Source: Thiohalophilus sp.
GTDB lineage: Bacteria; Pseudomonadota; Gammaproteobacteria; UBA6429; Thiohalophilaceae
NCBI RefSeq assembly: GCF_034522235.1
Contig: NZ_JAXHLN010000001.1
Span: forward strand, 1-40,708
DNA: 40,708 bases
Direction: 5' to 3'
Part shown: positions 1,189 through 38,780 of the stretch, piece by piece
Position numbering within the stretch: position 1 is the stretch's first letter
How the letters are laid out: each line of letters begins with the position of its first letter
The notes under the pieces: generated by a model
The model's input: only the letters and a program-made list of their open reading frames with translations
What the model was told of the DNA's origin: nothing
Databases searched by the model: none
Program-made: the position numbers and the translations under genes

Positions 1189-1216
1189 TTGTTGTTCTGC
1201 TCGTGCGCGTTATACT
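1189..1216 (+). promoter_or_regulatory. Candidate sigma-70 promoter of betT
   Basis: TTGTTG (1189-1194), a 16-base spacer, then TATACT (1211-1216). Transcription would begin near 1223. That is downstream of the first in-frame start at 1203 and so supports the GTG start at 1269. Confidence 0.4.
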
Positions 1217-1268
1217 CGGACGACATCGCGATCAGGCGTTCTGCGTGATCACCCATGAGGAGGCAAAT

Positions 1269-3269
1269 GTGAATAATAATCAAAGCGCCGAGGCCGGCGC
1301 TGAAAAGAAAAAATCACAAATCAATCCCCCGGTTTTTTATGGTTCCGCCGCATTAATCCTGGCGTTCGTGATCTTTGGCGCGTCGGTGCCGGAATTCGCC
1401 GGTGAAGTTTTCAATGATGTCCAGCAGTGGATTATTGCTACCTTCGGCTGGTACTACCTGTTGTCGGTGGCGGTGTTCCTGGTGTTCAGCATTGCATTGG
1501 CTATCAGTTCCTATGGGCAGATTAAACTCGGCCCGGATCACTCCGATCCGGATTACAGTTACCTCTCGTGGTTTGCCATGCTGTTCAGCGCCGGCATGGG
1601 GATCGGGATACTGTTTTTCGGGGTGGCCGAACCGGTGATGCATTTCACCAGTCCGCCGGTAGGTGAGGGCGGCGATGCCGCGGCGGCACGTCAGGCGATG
1701 TCGATTACCTTCTTTCACTGGGGACTGCATGCCTGGGCGATTTATGCCGTAGTCGGTTTGTCGCTGGCCTATTTCGGATACCGGCACAATCTGCCGCTGA
1801 CCGTTCGCTCGGCGCTTTATCCCCTCATCGGCGAACGCATTTACGGGCCGATCGGCCACATGGTCGATATTTTTGCGGTACTCGGTACCATGTTTGGTGT
1901 TGCCACTTCGTTGGGGCTGGGCGTGTTACAGGTCAACGCCGGGCTCAATTACCTGTTCGATATCCCGCAGTCAGTGCCGGTACAGATCGGGCTTATCGCG
2001 GTGATTACCGTTTTTGCCACCGCCTCGGTGGTCGCGGGGCTGGATGCCGGCATCAAGCGGCTCTCGGAACTGAATCTGGTGCTGGCGATCTTGTTGCTGT
2101 TGTTTGTGCTGATCGTCGGGCCGACCCTGTTCCTGTTGCATACCCTGGTACAGAACACCGGAGGCTATCTCAGTGAAGTCGTGAGCATGACCTTTAATCT
2201 GTACGCCTACGATCCCAATGGCTGGATTGGCGGCTGGACACTCTTTTACTGGGGCTGGTGGATGGCCTGGTCACCGTTTGTCGGCATGTTTATCGCACGG
2301 GTTTCGCGCGGGCGCACCATTCGTGAATTTATCCTTGGGGTATTATTCGTGCCGGTCGGTTTCACCTTTATGTGGATGACCTTCTTCGGCGGTACGGCGA
2401 TCAGCATGGAGCTGGGCGAGCTGGCCGGGGTGGTCTCGGGGGCGGTGTCCGAGGATGCGTCAATTGCGGTTTTCGCCATGTTCGACCAGCTGCCCTGGTC
2501 GATGCTGGCTTCGGGGATTGCCACATTGCTGGTGGTGACCTTCTTCGTTACCTCCTCGGACTCGGGATCCCTGGTGATCGATATTATCACCTCCGGCGGG
2601 CATACCGATCCGCCGGTGCGTCAGCGCATCTTCTGGGCGCTCAGCGAAGGGGTAGTGGCTGCCGTGTTACTGCTGGCCGGCGGTCTGACCGCCCTGCAGA
2701 CCGCCTCCATCGCCGGGGCGCTGCCGTTCAGCGCCATCATGCTGTTTATTTGTTACGGCCTGTGGAAAGGGCTGCGCATGGAGGGGATGAAGCGTCTGGC
2801 CTTTGAGACCGTGCCGGCGACGCCGATGGTCTCCTCGAGCAAGGTCCAGTGGCAGCAGCGGCTGAAAAAACTGATCAGCCATCCGAAAAAAGCCGAGGTC
2901 CTCAACTTTCTGACCAGCACCGTCAAGCCGGCGCTGGAGAAGGTTGCCGAGGAGATCCGCAAGGTGGATGCCGAGGTGGAGGTCGAGGTCCAGCAGGAAG
3001 AGAAGAGTGTGGCGTTGCGGGTCAAACACGGGGAGGAGCCGGAGTTTACTTACGGCGTGTATGCCGCCGGGCATCTGCTGCCGACCTTCGCGTTTCCCGA
3101 GTTCGACGCCGCCGGGCCGGATGCGAGCAAGCGTTATTATCGTGCCGAGGTCTATCTGGCTGAAGGCAGTCAGCATTACGACATCTGGGGTTATGTCGAG
3201 GAACAGGTGATCGGGGATGTGCTGGGTCAGTATGAGAAGCACATGCACTTTCTGCATCTGACCCGCTGA
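1269..3269 (+). CDS. betT: BCCT-family choline/betaine transporter (BetT-like)
   Basis: Inner-membrane transporter of the betaine-choline-carnitine family, importing a quaternary-ammonium osmolyte or its precursor with H+ or Na+. I chose GTG 1269 because AGGAGG lies five bases before it. The frame is open back to 1203 but nothing supports that start. The protein is 666 residues, close to E. coli BetT (677). About twelve hydrophobic helices are visible, with the glycine-rich GMGIGILFFGVAEP motif in the early part and the family signature WGWWMAWSPFVGMFIARVSRG (tryptophan-rich, helix 8) near residue 330. The last ~150 residues form a long charged cytoplasmic tail, typical of the BetT subgroup, where it senses osmotic strength. 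No betA, betB or betI lies next to it, so choline versus glycine betaine as substrate is not settled. Confidence 0.9.
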   Translation: MNNNQSAEAGAEKKKSQINPPVFYGSAALILAFVIFGASVPEFAGEVFNDVQQWIIATFGWYYLLSVAVFLVFSIALAISSYGQIKLGPDHSDPDYSYLSWFAMLFSAGMGIGILFFGVAEPVMHFTSPPVGEGGDAAAARQAMSITFFHWGLHAWAIYAVVGLSLAYFGYRHNLPLTVRSALYPLIGERIYGPIGHMVDIFAVLGTMFGVATSLGLGVLQVNAGLNYLFDIPQSVPVQIGLIAVITVFATASVVAGLDAGIKRLSELNLVLAILLLLFVLIVGPTLFLLHTLVQNTGGYLSEVVSMTFNLYAYDPNGWIGGWTLFYWGWWMAWSPFVGMFIARVSRGRTIREFILGVLFVPVGFTFMWMTFFGGTAISMELGELAGVVSGAVSEDASIAVFAMFDQLPWSMLASGIATLLVVTFFVTSSDSGSLVIDIITSGGHTDPPVRQRIFWALSEGVVAAVLLLAGGLTALQTASIAGALPFSAIMLFICYGLWKGLRMEGMKRLAFETVPATPMVSSSKVQWQQRLKKLISHPKKAEVLNFLTSTVKPALEKVAEEIRKVDAEVEVEVQQEEKSVALRVKHGEEPEFTYGVYAAGHLLPTFAFPEFDAAGPDASKRYYRAEVYLAEGSQHYDIWGYVEEQVIGDVLGQYEKHMHFLHLTR

Positions 3270-3364
3270 TGCCCCGAGGTGCCGGGAGGCTTGCGAGTTT
3301 GTGACCTGATCCGGAACTTTCCCCGCCCCGGCATGTCAGAATTAATGAGCGCAGTAATGCGCTT

Positions 3365-3475
3365 ATTCCCGCAACCCTCCCTGTAGTGGGAATTAAAAGC
3401 CCGGTTTCCCCAAGCCGGGCTATTTTGAAGGCCCCGGACGGCGCTTTATCCCCACTTCGTCCGGGGCATTTTTTT
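3365..3475 (+). ncRNA. Candidate small RNA 1: three hairpins with C-rich loops
   Basis: Three consecutive hairpins on the plus strand. The first is ATTCCCGC 3365-3372 with GTGGGAAT 3386-3393 (one G-U pair). The second is AGCCCGG 3398-3404 with CCGGGCT 3415-3421. The third is GCCCCGGACG 3431-3440 with CGTCCGGGGC 3458-3467, followed by A and seven T (3468-3475), a strong intrinsic terminator. The loops contain CCCTCCC, TTTCCCCAA and ATCCCCAC. The same three-hairpin order, loop motifs and terminal T-run recur at 5869-5977. The alternative is a plain bidirectional terminator between convergent genes: hairpin 2 read on the minus strand is also followed by TTTT. No clear promoter was found between 3270 and 3365. 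Confidence 0.45.
3431..3475 (+). terminator. Intrinsic terminator after betT / candidate sRNA 1
   Basis: A 10-base-pair perfect GC-rich stem, a 17-base loop and a run of seven T. It lies 160 bases after the betT stop and would end betT readthrough or the candidate sRNA. Confidence 0.85.
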
Positions 3476-3552
3476 GCCCCGGCGGAAACCCGCTCAAATC
3501 ATGCAGGCTCCGTTTGCGGCTTTGCCCCCGGACAGGTTATTCAGGTATCAGG

Positions 3553-4077
3553 TCAGAAGCGCTGTGTTATCCCGAAACTTGTAACAGTAAACTCCAGATA
3601 ATCTTCATCGTGATACATCATGTAATTGATATCGATGGCCGTTCTTTGTGAAACCAGGTATTCGATGCCCGCCCCATAGGACATGTCTGACTCGCGTTCT
3701 TTGGGCTGAATACCCAGTCCGCTGACTTCAAAGGTGCTGTGTGACCAGCCGAGCAGGGCATACAGTTTGTAGGTATCGCCGATATCGCCACGCAGGAAAA
3801 GCGAGGTCGTGTGTTTGTTGTGCAGCTTGCCACCGGCATCGGTCCCATGAATGAGATTGTCACCGGAAGTACCATAGAGAAAGTGGGCCTCCAGGGCAAA
3901 ATGGGGCACCAGATACTTGCCGTAGCGCACTCGCACTCCGTCCAGATCATATATAGAACCATTGGACGTTTCATACTTGCCCCAGGAGTAATCCAGCCCC
4001 AGGTACTGCTCGGTTTCGGCGGCGAGCGCCAGATTGGCAAACAGGGCGAGCGCCAGGAAGCTGATGAGTTTTTTCAT
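3553..4077 (-). CDS. Outer-membrane beta-barrel protein (OmpX/opacity-like)
   Basis: Small 8-strand-type outer-membrane barrel of 174 residues. It starts with a clear signal peptide (MKKLISFLALALFANLALAA, cleavage near residue 19-20). The mature part alternates polar and aromatic residues in short amphipathic strands, with repeated Tyr/Gly-rich segments (GLDYSWGKY, YGAGIEYLV), and ends in Phe (ITQRF), the usual signal for BAM-assisted outer-membrane insertion. The start is supported by AAGGGGA about ten bases before the ATG. It is convergent with betT and divergent from nothing; the cytochrome-porin gene lies upstream on the same strand, 284 bases away, so a separate promoter is likely. The specific role is unknown. 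Its ribosome-binding site GGGGAU is complementary to the AUCCCC loop of candidate sRNA 1. Confidence 0.8.
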   Translation of the reverse strand: MKKLISFLALALFANLALAAETEQYLGLDYSWGKYETSNGSIYDLDGVRVRYGKYLVPHFALEAHFLYGTSGDNLIHGTDAGGKLHNKHTTSLFLRGDIGDTYKLYALLGWSHSTFEVSGLGIQPKERESDMSYGAGIEYLVSQRTAIDINYMMYHDEDYLEFTVTSFGITQRF

Positions 4078-4195
4078 TATTAGTAATCCCCTTAAGAAGT
4101 GTCTTTAAGATTATGATTTTAAATCAATAATCTTTCAAGTAATAAAGGGGTTATTTTCAGGCTAAATCGGCGAGCCGGATACCCGCCAGGTGAGC

Positions 4196-4269
4196 GGTGC
4201 CCCGCGCCAGCCAGGACCGTCTAGCACGCAGGAAGGTCTTTACACAGGTCCTGGCAGGCGCGGGGCGCC
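4196..4269. repeat. Long inverted repeat (23-base arms, 28-base loop)
   Basis: Arms 4196-4218 and 4247-4269 are complementary at 21 of 23 positions plus one G-U pair, giving a very stable stem (core CCCCGCGCC). There is no T-run on either strand, so it is not a classical intrinsic terminator. It lies between the stop of the cytochrome-porin gene and the start of the small barrel gene. It could stabilise mRNA ends or be a small palindromic repeat. The rest of 4078-4361 holds no gene that I can support. Confidence 0.7.
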
Positions 4270-4361
4270 TGGCAACGTTCACACTGATCGGGTATTTGCA
4301 GAGTCCTTATTATTTACCTCTCGATACGGAGGTTCTCAGCCGTGACCTCTGGCATCAGTGC

Positions 4362-5648
4362 TTAAAATGCGGCATCAAAGCCCAGCAGCAGATAATTTTC
4401 ATTGGTCAGGTGGCCGGTCCAGTAGGTGCCACTTTTCTCTACCTTGTCCTGCAGATCGGCGTTGAGCTCGATCACCCCCTTGACGTTGCGCATGAAGTAA
4501 TAGGACGCCGTATAGGTCAGGGTCTCCATGGCGATGCCTTCGTAGATGGTATCGGTGTTTTCCAGATCCCCGGCGTCGGCGTAGTTATACAGCAGCGAAT
4601 GGGCCCAGCGCGGGCTGTGGATGTAGTCGATGCCGACAAAGCCGCCGAACCACTCGTATTTCTGGTCTTCATCGATAAAGCCGTCCCATTCGTTCCACAG
4701 GGCCTGGGCAAACCAGTAGGTCTTGTTGCCGATCTTGCCGTTGAAATCGAGGCCGACGATGTTCTTGTCGGTGTCGCGATCACCGCTGCCGGTGCCGGCA
4801 ATTGATGTCAGATCGACGTTTTTCTGCTGGCCGCTGTAACCGAACAGGCCGGCCGCCACCGGGCCGATATCGCCGCCGATGCGGCCGAACACCGCCTTGG
4901 AGGTGTCGTTATCGAACAGGTGATCCGCGCGTTGATAGCCGGGGCTGTTGATGGTGAGGTTTTGTTTGATGCCGTTGCCGTTGACCAGGCCGATGGCCAG
5001 ATCGAGCGGCCCGGCGCTGGTGTCAAAAATGGTGCCACGATCATAGGTGATGCCGGCCATGCGATAGGCCATGTAGTCCTGGAAGGTCAGGCGGGTCTCG
5101 CGCGGGAACATCAGATCCGAGACCTGGAACTGGCCGAGCATCATGCCCACATCCGAGCCGAACAGGGCATCGTGGGAGAACCAGGCATCCTCGACGATGG
5201 TCTGGCCGTTGTCGCCCTTCTCGGCGAAGATGGCGTAAAAGTAATAGGTGATGTGCTCCGACAGTGGCGCGCTGGAGAGCATCTTGATCAGATAGGGCGA
5301 CTGGAAGTCGCTGTCCACTTCGGTGGTCTCGCCAGTGCCTACGTCGATCGCCTCGGCATCGCGCGCCTGGGCAAAGGCCTGGGCGCGAAACGCGATCGGC
5401 GGGGTTTTGGCCAGGGCCAGCATGTCGTCGCCGGTGGCCACGGTGTTGTCCTTCCAGTTGGGCAGGCGGAAGTTGGAGTCGGCGAAACTTTCCCCGAACT
5501 CGTTCAGTTTGGGAAAGGCGGCGTGACAGGTGGCGCAGGACATTTTGTAGTCGCGGGCGAAGGCCGGCATGGCGTTCGCCTCGGGCAGTAACAGAATCAG
5601 CAGCAGCAAACTGCTGAACAGCGTGTGCAGATGAAAGCGTTTGAGCAT
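4362..5648 (-). CDS. Mono-haem cytochrome c-porin fusion (Cyc2-like)
   Basis: 428 residues. A signal peptide (about residues 1-26, ending ANA) is followed at once by PAFARDYKMSCATCHAAFPKL, a single CxxCH haem site followed by the P-x-LN-x-FG motif seen in fused cytochrome-porins. The rest (from about residue 80) is a predicted outer-membrane barrel with amphipathic strands and the family-typical block GQFQVSDLMFPRETRLTFQDY, ending in Phe (LLGFDAAF). In Cyc2 of iron-oxidising bacteria this architecture carries electrons across the outer membrane. Many relatives have unknown donors, so iron oxidation here is only a possibility. The start is supported by GGGGAGAA seven bases before the ATG. Neighbouring soluble cytochromes c5 and c4 could act as periplasmic partners. 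No operon partner lies on the same strand close by. Confidence 0.8.
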   Translation of the reverse strand: MLKRFHLHTLFSSLLLLILLLPEANAMPAFARDYKMSCATCHAAFPKLNEFGESFADSNFRLPNWKDNTVATGDDMLALAKTPPIAFRAQAFAQARDAEAIDVGTGETTEVDSDFQSPYLIKMLSSAPLSEHITYYFYAIFAEKGDNGQTIVEDAWFSHDALFGSDVGMMLGQFQVSDLMFPRETRLTFQDYMAYRMAGITYDRGTIFDTSAGPLDLAIGLVNGNGIKQNLTINSPGYQRADHLFDNDTSKAVFGRIGGDIGPVAAGLFGYSGQQKNVDLTSIAGTGSGDRDTDKNIVGLDFNGKIGNKTYWFAQALWNEWDGFIDEDQKYEWFGGFVGIDYIHSPRWAHSLLYNYADAGDLENTDTIYEGIAMETLTYTASYYFMRNVKGVIELNADLQDKVEKSGTYWTGHLTNENYLLLGFDAAF

Positions 5649-5868
5649 GGTCGTTCTCCCCGTTGCAGTGGCAAGTTGTTTTATCGAGCCGGCCCGGGAT
5701 AACTCTTCGGTTATGGCAAGTCCGGGCGGATCGGTTGCTTGTCGGGAGAGTCTAGCGGGTTTTTCTGAAATGAAACTGAATCGGGCGGGTGGCGCAAAGA
5801 TTTAACAAACGTTCACAATCGCCGCCTGTTACCGGAACGGTTTGCGCACTACGCTGTAACGGTCTGAC

Positions 5869-5977
5869 CCCGCTTTACCCAGAGCGGGATTCAAGGCCCG
5901 GTCCCCAATGCCGGGCGAATTTGGCCCCGGAATGACGCAATTCCCCACATCCCAACCCCTGTTCCGGGGTTTTTTTT
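5869..5977 (+). ncRNA. Candidate small RNA 2: homologous three-hairpin element
   Basis: Three hairpins on the plus strand: CCCGCT 5869-5874 with AGCGGG 5883-5888; GCCCGG 5896-5901 with CCGGGC 5911-5916; CCCCGGAA 5925-5932 with TTCCGGGG 5962-5969, followed by eight T (5970-5977). The loops hold TTACCC, TCCCCAA and TTCCCCACATCCC. The order, the UCCCCAA and UCCCCAC loop motifs and several flanking bases match the element at 3365-3475. No plus-strand gene lies within 2.4 kb upstream, so the T-run terminator implies an unannotated plus-strand transcript. The terminator overlaps the engB stop codon on the other strand. I did not find a convincing promoter in 5700-5868. The rest of the 327-base gap 5649-5975 must hold the promoter of the cytochrome-porin gene; TAGACT (minus, 5754-5749) is a weak -10 candidate. 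Confidence 0.5.
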
Positions 5978-6608
5978 ATTTCCCTTGATCCGGCTCAAGG
6001 TCGAGCCAGCGGTTGACCACGTTTAATGCCTCCTCGAGCCCCTGTTTTTTGGTGGCCGAGAACAGCTGCAGGGACGTCTGCGGGTAGTCGGCAAGCTGTT
6101 TGCGCACCGCCAGCAGGGTATTTTGTGCCGGGCCGCGTTTGAGCTTGTCGGCCTTGGTCAGCAGGATGTGCACCGGCAGCTCGGCATGACGGCTGAAATC
6201 GAGCATTTGCCAGTCGTAGTCGGTCAGGGGATGGCGGATGTCCATCAGCAGGATCAGTCCGGCCAGTGACTCGCGCTGCTGCAAATAGGTGGCCATGGTC
6301 TCGCCCCACTGGCGCTGGACCGCCTCGGGCACCCGGGCAAAGCCGTAGCCGGGTAGATCCACCAGCCGGCGCCGATCGTCCAGAGCGAAAAAGACCAGAT
6401 GTTGGGTACGCCCAGGGGTTTTACTGGTGCGGGCCAGGGCCTTGCGGCCGGTCAGGGCGTTGAGGGCACTGGACTTGCCGGCATTGGAACGCCCGGCGAA
6501 TGCCACTTCGGCACCGCTGTCCGCCGGGGCCTGATGCGGTTGGGGGACGCTGAGCAGAAAGCGGATTTCGGCGTAGGGGCGGCGTAAGTGGTTGAGTTGA
6601 TTGCTCAC
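5976..6608 (-). CDS. engB: Ribosome-biogenesis GTPase EngB/YihA
   Basis: GTP-binding protein of the EngB/YihA/YsxC family, needed for late steps of large ribosomal subunit assembly in the cytosol. The GTPase motifs are all present: G1 [10 protein letters not shown]2 KTPGRTQ, G3 DLPGYG, G4 TKADK and G5-like SATKKQG. The frame is open upstream to an ATG at 6716 (246 residues), but I prefer GTG 6608. That gives 210 residues, the length of E. coli YihA, and puts [11 protein letters not shown] at the usual distance from the start. A minus-strand -10-like TATTAT (6649-6644) lies upstream of this start. The gene is divergent from the cytochrome genes, an arrangement (engB next to cytochromes c5/c4) that I recall from Pseudomonas. 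Confidence 0.93.
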
Positions 6609-6657
6609 GGGGCTCAATAGTGGGTTTCGTGGTGGCTCTGGGGTATAATAGGTCGCC

Positions 6658-6686
6658 TTGACCAGATTACGGGCGGCTGATATATA
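6658..6686 (+). promoter_or_regulatory. Sigma-70 promoter of the cytochrome c5 gene
   Basis: TTGACC (6658-6663), a 17-base spacer and TATATA (6681-6686), with a predicted start near 6693, about 100 bases before the ATG at 6795. It lies just upstream of the preferred engB start, which also argues against the longer engB reading. Confidence 0.6.
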
Positions 6687-6794
6687 GTCAGCCGCTTTAT
6701 TACGGGATTCTAGCATGGCGAACTTGGGGATGGCGTCATGGTCAAACTTTTATCCGTATCATCAACATAAGCTTGAAGCTATTAGGAGTAGACA

Positions 6795-38123: not shown

Positions 38124-38780
38124 ATGAAAAACGTTAAAGTATTACTCGTAGGTTCCGCCCTGGCTGCATCAACAGTCGCGAGCCCAATGGTGATGGCGGA
38201 GACCTCCGTATCTGCCAATGTGGGTTATACCTCGGACTACTTTTTCCGTGGTGTTTACCAGGCTGAATCTTCCGCCTCGGCAGGACTGGATGTTGAGTTC
38301 GGTCCAGGATTCTATGCGGGCACCTGGCTGGCCGACGTGAATGACGGCGTGGAGTATGACTTGTATGCCGGTTATGCCGGTGAGTACCAGGGTTTTAGCT
38401 ATGACCTGGGCTATGTCACCTATAACTACTCCGACGACTGGGATGATACCTATTCTGAAGTTGCGGCCAGTCTTGGTTATGGACCGATCAGCGTGGCTTA
38501 CGCTGTCGGTGAATGGGACGGTTTTGGTACACCGGCTGATTACACTTTCCTGAGCGTGAGCGCCGAATACAAGGGTGCCTATATCACCTTTGGTTCCTGG
38601 GGTGATGAGTTCGAAGGTGACTATACCGAGCTGGGCTACAGCAAAACGGTCAGCGACGTTGATTACAGCGTTGCTCTGATCAACAACGATAAGAACCTCG
38701 ATCTGCGCTCAAGCGCCAGTGACGGTTCTGTCGGCGAAACGGCCCTGACTTTCAGCATCGGTTACGCATGGGATCTGTAA
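38124..38780 (+). CDS. TorF-family putative porin 2, nitrogen-regulated
   Basis: 218-residue outer-membrane protein of the TorF/TIGR02001 family. Signal peptide about 1-25 (VMAETS), then the mature start SVSANVGYTSDYFFRGVYQAESSASAGLDVEF, the same hallmark as the gene at 37163 (SDYFFRGVYQ). The protein is strongly acidic with many Tyr and Gly, and has the alternating pattern of barrel strands; the last is LTFSIGYAWDL. GGGGATGAG precedes the ATG. It lies directly behind NtrC sites and a sigma-54 promoter and 70 bases before glnK in the same direction. That predicts expression during nitrogen limitation and a possible role in uptake of a nitrogen source. Confidence 0.88.
   Translation: MKNVKVLLVGSALAASTVASPMVMAETSVSANVGYTSDYFFRGVYQAESSASAGLDVEFGPGFYAGTWLADVNDGVEYDLYAGYAGEYQGFSYDLGYVTYNYSDDWDDTYSEVAASLGYGPISVAYAVGEWDGFGTPADYTFLSVSAEYKGAYITFGSWGDEFEGDYTELGYSKTVSDVDYSVALINNDKNLDLRSSASDGSVGETALTFSIGYAWDL

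Follow-up and report, generated by a model that had tools for sequence, protein, structure and literature searches.

The 40,708-nucleotide stretch of DNA analyzed here (the window, which is the whole of contig C1 of a three-contig genome bin of Thiohalophilus sp.) carries on its plus strand two loci, copy 1 at positions 3365 to 3475 and copy 2 at positions 5869 to 5977, that are, as judged by comparative tests, a real and conserved pair of small-RNA genes. The reading that we regard as probable is that the two loci encode twin trans-acting sRNAs of the polA-engB type, duplicated in tandem, of which the C-rich loops pair with G-rich ribosome-binding sites (RBSs) and which respond to two different inputs. 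Each RNA, with a predicted length of about 110 to 130 nt, would belong with the sRNAs of the polA-engB locus, as do ErsA, sX13 and anti-hemB.

Structure of the two copies

Folding of each locus alone yields hairpins at positions 3365–3393, 3398–3421 and 3431–3467 for copy 1, and at positions 5869–5888, 5896–5916 and 5923–5971 for copy 2, the third hairpin being followed by a T-run at both loci. All features listed in the initial annotation, namely two loci with three hairpins each, UCCCCAA in loop 2, UCCCCAC in loop 3 and a closing T-run, are present in the sequence and in the folds, and the two loop motifs are common to both copies. The C-rich loops of copy 1 are, in order, AACCCUCCCUGUA, UUCCCCAA and a third one that contains AUCCCCAC, and loop 3 of copy 2 is UUCCCCACAUCCCAACCCC. 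Compared to dinucleotide shuffles, copy 1 has a folding z-score of −4.88, which none of 200 shuffles reached, and copy 2 has a z-score of −2.48, which 2 of 200 reached. The assignment of both loci as three hairpins with an intrinsic terminator is thus based on sequence, fold and a covariance-model match, together with covariation for copy 1 and a match to the Rfam model RF02837 for copy 2. Each RNA would accordingly be built as a rigid string of hairpins with runs of C displayed in the loops. A small open reading frame as in Spot 42 was also looked for inside the RNA; a 13-codon frame was seen by eye in copy 1 and none in the relatives that were read, and this candidate was dropped.

The two copies belong to one structured RNA family

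A covariance-model search of relatives had been proposed in the initial annotation. Our model R2 was built with a hand-written structure from three relatives (L055, L029 and L032) and without window sequences, and it recovers both loci in a search set of 149 kb: copy 1 at positions 3365–3473 (60.8 bits, E 2.9e-12) and copy 2 at positions 5867–5976 (47.2 bits, E 4.5e-9). With E values up to 5 admitted, R2 has 61 matches in total, distributed over 37 sources. The stem sequences of the two copies differ and the copies align poorly outside the loops and the terminator, as would be expected if they were not paralogues but unrelated RNAs that had converged on C-rich loops. Such a convergence is very improbable, since one model that contains neither copy recovers both, and since 17 of the 40 genomes of the family have at least two matches within 1 kb on the same strand (our own count). 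Both loci are, as far as sequence comparison can tell, divergent copies of one structured RNA.

The covariation analysis was performed on the 43 R2 matches, taken from 31 sources, whose E value did not exceed 0.0004. Pairing is seen in 97.0% of the 986 cells in the alignment, and both sides have changed in 23 of the 24 base pairs. With a covariation score of 0.624, the alignment lies above every control (0.189 for shuffles; no slid structure above 0.135). The structure was used to fit the alignment, so that these figures lean towards it, but the margin is wide nonetheless. The compensatory change in the stems, from which selection on structure had been suggested for the two copies, is therefore borne out across the family. 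Alignments made with MAFFT (27, 13, 2, 5 and 4 members) were dropped as the stems had slid out of register, and a model built from the 27-member alignment (R1) was discarded and used for no search. A broader model, R3, was built from the 43-row realignment; it contains the window copies, so that its matches on the window are true by construction.

The runs of C in the loops are conserved along with the stems. Among the 43 rows, CCC is present in loop 1 of 40, CCCC in loop 2 of 36 and CCCC in loop 3 of 34, compared to CCCC in 4 and 0 rows for the two linkers. Shuffles of the letters within each loop contain CCC in 48% of cases for loop 1, and CCCC in 13% for loop 2 and 30% for loop 3. The loops vary more in a second set of 39 rows, among them weak matches with E values as high as 1: here, loop 1 holds CCC in 21 rows, and CCCC is seen in loop 2 of 18 and in loop 3 of 29. 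It had also been considered that homologues in relatives might keep only the last hairpin as a terminator. The aligned distal and single copies (relative to engB, see below) do not behave in this way, but some proximal copies do: in several relatives (e.g. L022, L023 and L024), the proximal copy has kept the terminator hairpin with its C-rich loop while hairpins 1 and 2 have diverged. The terminator loop CCCCACAUCCCAACCC is near-identical across several genera in such proximal copies (L022 to L025; positions 5923–5971 in the window), and it may be the main pairing site of the proximal copy.

BLAST searches against 144 genomes, our own included, gave matches for copy 2 in 21 and for copy 1 in 22 genomes. 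The one genome of the same genus has both copies, with identities of 97% and 96%, and its EngB protein is 91% identical. Rows of three or four RNA matches were observed at L221 (G209:C33), at G300:C3:217579-218301 and at L057 (G026:C25).

Genomic location and distribution

Copy 1 begins 96 bases past the stop codon of a BCCT transporter gene (1203–3269) on the same strand. Copy 2 runs up to the 3′ end of, and is convergent with, engB (yihA/ysxC; positions 5976–6716, minus strand, Pfam MMR_HSR1), the GTPase gene that is the usual neighbor of this RNA; copy 1 is therefore termed engB-distal and copy 2 engB-proximal. Two minus-strand genes lie between the copies. The first encodes an outer-membrane beta-barrel protein (3553–4077, Pfam OMP_b-brl). 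The second (4362–5648) is an open reading frame without a Pfam match, the translation of which reads as a putative porin-like protein that has a CxxCH motif, presumptively haem-binding, close to the N-terminus. Beyond engB come two genes for cytochrome c, one for ResB and one for cytochrome c assembly. The two RNAs would have arisen by tandem duplication beside engB, and the membrane-protein genes would have come between them later.

Contig C3 of the same bin carries a second version of this locus with both RNAs. Between the two versions, the identity is 97% for copy 2 and 99% for copy 1, compared to 85% DNA identity for the 3.5-kb stretch with the porin-like gene, engB and the cytochrome genes. 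The first 12.9 kb of the window match C3 (L202) with 98.7% identity over positions 1–1122, 93.5% over positions 3311–3479 and 80–85% elsewhere, and neither the BCCT gene nor the beta-barrel gene had a match in the 20 kb of C3 that were compared. The slow change of copy 1 within the bin is ambiguous because an open reading frame at positions 41–1132 is also 98.7% identical. The window and C3 may represent a contig of a sister species in the bin, or a diverged duplication.

In the same family, R3 matches 36 of 40 genomes at E 0.01, including all 22 whose completeness is at least 90% and whose contamination is no higher than 5%. In a number of genomes of the family, both RNAs are found in tandem, a few hundred bases apart and adjoining engB. 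In the class, R3 matches 166 of 369 genomes at E 0.001, mostly once per genome, and in the phylum-wide search it matches 10 of 249 genomes, all of which are our own or of the same class; the class and phylum searches were run with stricter filters, which lose weak matches. Of 30 class loci examined for their surroundings (the window and several R3 training loci among them), 23 have engB within 1.5 kb, 16 have polA and 26 have at least one of the two. The same distance holds for engB and/or polA at 5 of the 9 loci outside our own genome in the phylum-wide search. We also searched 81 named loci, 80 of which were chosen for engB, the remaining one being that of E. coli. Here, 34 loci gave R3 matches with E values up to 1, 39 matches in total; all of these lie on the strand opposite to engB, and 36 of them start no more than 600 bases beyond the engB 3′ end (our own count). 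No R3 match was obtained at 47 of the 81 loci, including the Halomonas-type loci and those of most methanotrophs. A search for EngB on plasmids yielded nothing useful.

Upstream elements of the two copies

A sequence of the form GAACTT-N15-GTCAGA precedes copy 1 at positions 3314–3340 of the plus strand (GAACTT at 3314–3319, a 15-base spacer, GTCAGA at 3335–3340), which has the shape of a σE/AlgU-type promoter. The element agrees with the consensus at 10 of the 10 positions scored. Among 73 distinct copies that are distal or single, 58 have such an element upstream with at least 9 of 10 positions, compared to 0.4–0.5% of shuffled upstream sequences. The pattern was set after part of the first 27 rows had been read, and 25 of these 27 carry it (0.5% of shuffles); the 46 later rows were unread beforehand, and 33 of them carry it (0.4% of shuffles). 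The spacer is 15 bases long in 25 of the 25 first rows and in 22 of the 33 later rows with an element, and 16 bases long in the other 11, Pseudomonas included. The distance from the element to hairpin 1 is mostly 17–28 bases. Only 2 of 22 proximal copies have such an element, and copy 2 of the window is without one. In the tandem pair of Ectothiorhodospira mobilis DSM 4180 (L108), a σE element is present for each of the two RNAs. Our own genome encodes RpoE above the curated cut-off (TIGR02939, 321.7 bits).

For these counts, mononucleotide shuffles served as controls and σE spacers of 14–17 bases were permitted. The 73 distal or single copies are 74 hand-sorted rows minus L095, which is the same locus as L064, and the proximal rows number 22. 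Rows were excluded as duplicates (L072, L073, L075, L082, L088 and L092), as weak R2 matches (e.g. in L026, L034, L039, L040 and L059) or as weaker, truncated or distant R3 matches (14 rows; L107, L114, L121, L123, L142, L146 and L149, L151, L153, L156, L175). Of 13 excluded rows that were tested later, 6 reach 9 of 10 positions or better.

A fourth hairpin, missed in the initial annotation, is predicted at the 5′ side of copy 1 at positions 3347–3364 of the plus strand, where it adjoins the expected transcription start (leader fold −10.0 kcal/mol). In the comparison of leaders, 66 of the 74 distal or single rows were used and 64 passed a filter of 8/10. A 5′ hairpin of at least 4 base pairs was found in 44 of these 64 leaders (one locus being counted twice; 43 of 63 distinct ones), compared to 36% of shuffled leaders, and such a hairpin after the σE element is absent from most Pseudomonas leaders.

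Copy 2 is preceded by a different element, a response-regulator-like direct-repeat box of the form TTTAACA-N3-GTTCACA at positions 5801–5817 of the plus strand. The pattern ACA-N4-TTNACA, which was chosen on the same 22 rows that were used for its count, is present upstream of 18 of the 22 proximal copies at a distance of 51–72 bases (one at 22), compared to 0.15% of shuffles. A possible weak σ70 promoter can be read in the sequence at positions 5827–5855 of the plus strand (TGTTAC, 17 bases, TACGCT). The boxes of CpxR, RstA and CreB were weighed for the direct repeat, and none was assigned. The tighter pattern TTWACANNNNTTCACA has 3 sites in the whole bin, 2 of which are at this RNA. The third one (L205, around 1501–1516; G000:C3:1148874-1148889) lies before an Rrf2/IscR-like open reading frame; from their translations, we take the frames that flank this site to encode an Rrf2/IscR-type regulator and a Lon-like protease. 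The Rrf2/IscR-like frame may be connected with the regulator of copy 2.

The two copies thus carry two different upstream elements, of the σE type for copy 1 and a direct repeat for copy 2, which had gone unnoticed in the initial annotation. Copy 1 would be switched on by σE (RpoE/AlgU) under envelope stress, and copy 2 would answer another regulator that binds the TTNACA direct repeat.

The promoter-like elements also bear on whether the loci are independent genes at all. Both copies end in intrinsic terminators, copy 1 lies close behind the BCCT gene and polA is a frequent neighbor among the class loci, as noted above, so that the loci could be no more than terminators, or structured 3′ ends, that belong to the plus-strand genes before them (the BCCT gene here, polA elsewhere), perhaps stabilizing or processing those mRNAs and having no function in trans. 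We consider this quite unlikely, since all three loops and the stems are conserved with covariation, and since a promoter-like element stands a short distance, in most cases 17–28 bases, before hairpin 1. Moreover, the upstream gene varies, the BCCT gene being unmatched at the second locus of the bin, and the gene upstream of copy 2 (4362–5648) is on the opposite strand. The proposal in the initial annotation that the loci form a paired small-RNA family agrees with the comparative evidence, in which covariation, the runs of C in the loops, the promoter-like elements and the genomic place are all conserved.

Candidate targets and mode of action

The Xanthomonas sRNA sX13 represses mRNAs with GGGG near the start codon, its action is Hfq-independent, and repression depends on the C-rich loops of the RNA as well as on G-motifs in the target mRNAs (PMC3771888). 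The RNAs of the window display exposed loops like those of sX13, from which we infer the same mode of action: the loops with runs of C would pair with G-rich RBSs and block translation, as for sX13. The predicted targets would be mRNAs with GGGGA at the RBS, those of outer-membrane proteins among them. Both genes between the copies have GGGGA, which is complementary to the UCCCC loops, 13–14 bases before the start codon, and these are candidate target sites at the RBS of the beta-barrel gene (4087–4091, minus strand) and of the porin-like gene (5657–5661, minus strand). For comparison, GGGGA is found within −18 to −4 at 7 of 246 sampled gene starts. In a duplex test against 286 sampled gene starts with six loops, uncorrected for their number, the porin-like gene ranks at 1.4% with loop 2 of copy 1 and the beta-barrel gene at 4.2% with loop 2 of copy 2; other sampled genes outscore both. 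The flanking genes are suggestive as candidate targets, a lead rather than a result. A third gene of the window, with its start at 38124 (plus strand), has GGGGAUG at its RBS.

In the sX13 experiments, compensating mutations in loop and target failed to restore regulation (PMC3771888), which means that direct pairing is not fully proven even for sX13. An alternative mode of action is that of a sponge or protein-binding sRNA, in which the CCC and CUCC loops would titrate a protein or a G-rich RNA and the RBSs would not be blocked. The loops are short, repeated and alike, as in a possible multivalent decoy. We nevertheless hold this to be unlikely because the repression by sX13 needs both the C-rich loops and the G-motif of the target, even though compensation failed, and because the runs of C in the loops directly match G-rich RBSs. 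Pairing with G-rich RBSs is therefore retained as the probable mode of action.

Relationship to known RNA families

At the Rfam gathering thresholds, only a tRNA is detected in the window, and none of the R3 training loci reaches any Rfam cut-off at the RNA. Below the thresholds, the anti-hemB, ErsA, sX13 and ar14 models match in a set of 20 related loci. At the gathering thresholds, 1 of 20 class loci passes (as anti-hemB) and 19 are missed.

One of the closest families is anti-hemB (RF02837; ncS04 of Burkholderia cenocepacia), which like the window RNAs has three hairpins and a terminator. Its model matches copy 2 with 36 bits (E 4.5e-6) and copy 1 with 25 bits (E 0.0057), both below the cut-off of 49.5; the match on copy 2 is full-length (1–81 of 81), and no pair in the displayed section is flagged as non-standard. 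Two related loci exceed the cut-off (L078 with 51.7 bits, and L108 from Ectothiorhodospira mobilis with 52.8 bits). At E 1e-4, RF02837 matches 106 of 274 class genomes (13 over the cut-off) and 1 of 14 named control genomes. Taking one match per genome, with our own genome left out and G145 represented by its second-best match, at least 75 of 105 RF02837 matches coincide with R3 among the matches listed; for the genomes over the cut-off, 7 of 13 coincide with R3 among the matches listed and 6 of 13 do not. In B. cenocepacia, anti-hemB is among the sRNAs that are strongly expressed in biofilms (PMC5688073). A tandem arrangement with two kinds of upstream element, as in the window, is undescribed for anti-hemB in the portions of the literature at our disposal.

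ErsA (Pseudomon-1, RF01719) shares with the window RNAs the place at engB, C-rich loops 2 and 3, and the terminator. ErsA has an AlgU (σE-type) promoter, and a sequence element of this type is present for copy 1 and absent for copy 2. R3 finds 12 of 14 Pseudomonas-type loci (those titled Pseudomonas, Halopseudomonas or Pseudomonadaceae), with E values between 5.5e-5 and 0.022 when 798 kb were searched. Rfam models were run on 4 of the 14: in 3 of these, ErsA lies at the place of the R3 match, and the fourth has neither. RF01719 itself matches copy 1 with 23 bits (E 0.15, cut-off 50), and copy 2 is not among the matches listed. ErsA differs in that its hairpin 1 pairs poorly in the R3 alignment and in that the promoter spacer in Pseudomonas is 16 rather than 15 bases. 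It sits between polA and engB; in the window, engB is adjacent and polA was not seen there, and in a number of relatives, polA and engB both flank the RNA. According to two studies, ersA is located between polA and engB and ErsA is Hfq-dependent (PMC8575079), and ersA is transcribed by AlgU, ErsA represses algC with Hfq and it has been called a functional orthologue of Spot 42 (PMC8395346).

The initial annotation had likened the RNAs to sX13 (RF02232) of the Xanthomonadaceae, which likewise has three stems with apical runs of C, and this likeness largely holds. As described, sX13 has three hairpins with loops of 4C, 4C and 5C, lies just downstream of polA and is confined to the Xanthomonadaceae; its locus resembles that of Spot 42, and the question of sRNAs at polA loci elsewhere was raised (PMC3771888). 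In favor of the likeness, two genes above the sX13 cut-off were scored in place by R3 with filters off in 25 kb (L220, E 9.7e-5; L219, E 7.4e-4), and RF02232 gives sub-threshold matches at several of the related loci. Against it, the same two sX13 genes are not among the matches listed for the whole-genome R3 searches, and in G203 and G051, which have sX13 genes over the Rfam cut-off, the single R3 match lies elsewhere than sX13. RF02232 has no match in positions 3250–6020 of the window up to E 5 (cut-off 50 bits) and none in our own genome at E 0.001. No clear σE element was seen upstream of sX13 on reading the sequence.

Spot 42 (RF00021) of the Enterobacterales and Vibrionaceae occupies the same place, in the order polA-spf-yihA(engB). 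With filters off, the best R3 score in the E. coli region (2.5 kb) falls on spf and on the right strand (15.2 bits, E 0.0058); with normal filters, R3 does not find Spot 42. Conversely, RF00021 matches copy 1 with 20.5 bits (E 0.79, cut-off 80). Spot 42 differs in that the aligned part lacks loops with runs of C, that the score comes mainly from the terminator, and that it carries the small protein SpfP. The evidence for kinship from E. coli Spot 42 is slight.

The NmsR RNAs of Neisseria meningitidis have a tandem order and anti-Shine-Dalgarno loops. They are siblings in one genome (PMC5362039), like the window pair, to which we liken them by description only.

The clan column of Rfam 15 is empty for RF02837, RF01719, RF02232 and RF00021. 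In the literature at hand, from which subscription papers were mostly missing, we found neither a link between ErsA, sX13 and anti-hemB, nor the class-wide σE element, nor the split of promoters in tandem. The window pair is new as a tandem, probably differently controlled form of a known type of RNA, and it bridges families that have been kept apart so far. Taken together, these four clan-less families resemble parts of a single, widespread RNA that sits at one housekeeping locus, and this points to a function for many loci that are missed by the Rfam cut-offs, such as the 19 class loci mentioned above. Two tandem copies with different upstream elements would also serve as a natural experiment on the way in which an sRNA, once duplicated, acquires a second input and yet retains its loops. 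On balance, we lean slightly towards the view that ErsA, sX13, anti-hemB and the window RNAs form one ancient polA-engB sRNA family of the Gammaproteobacteria (in the GTDB sense, Burkholderiales included) that was ancestrally under the control of σE, with Spot 42 perhaps a derived member that has lost the runs of C in its loops. In the family of the window, a tandem duplication would then have been followed by a change of copy 2 from a σE promoter to one of the response-regulator type, giving two stress inputs. If so, the lineage-specific sRNAs of pathogens would be local versions of an old σE effector.
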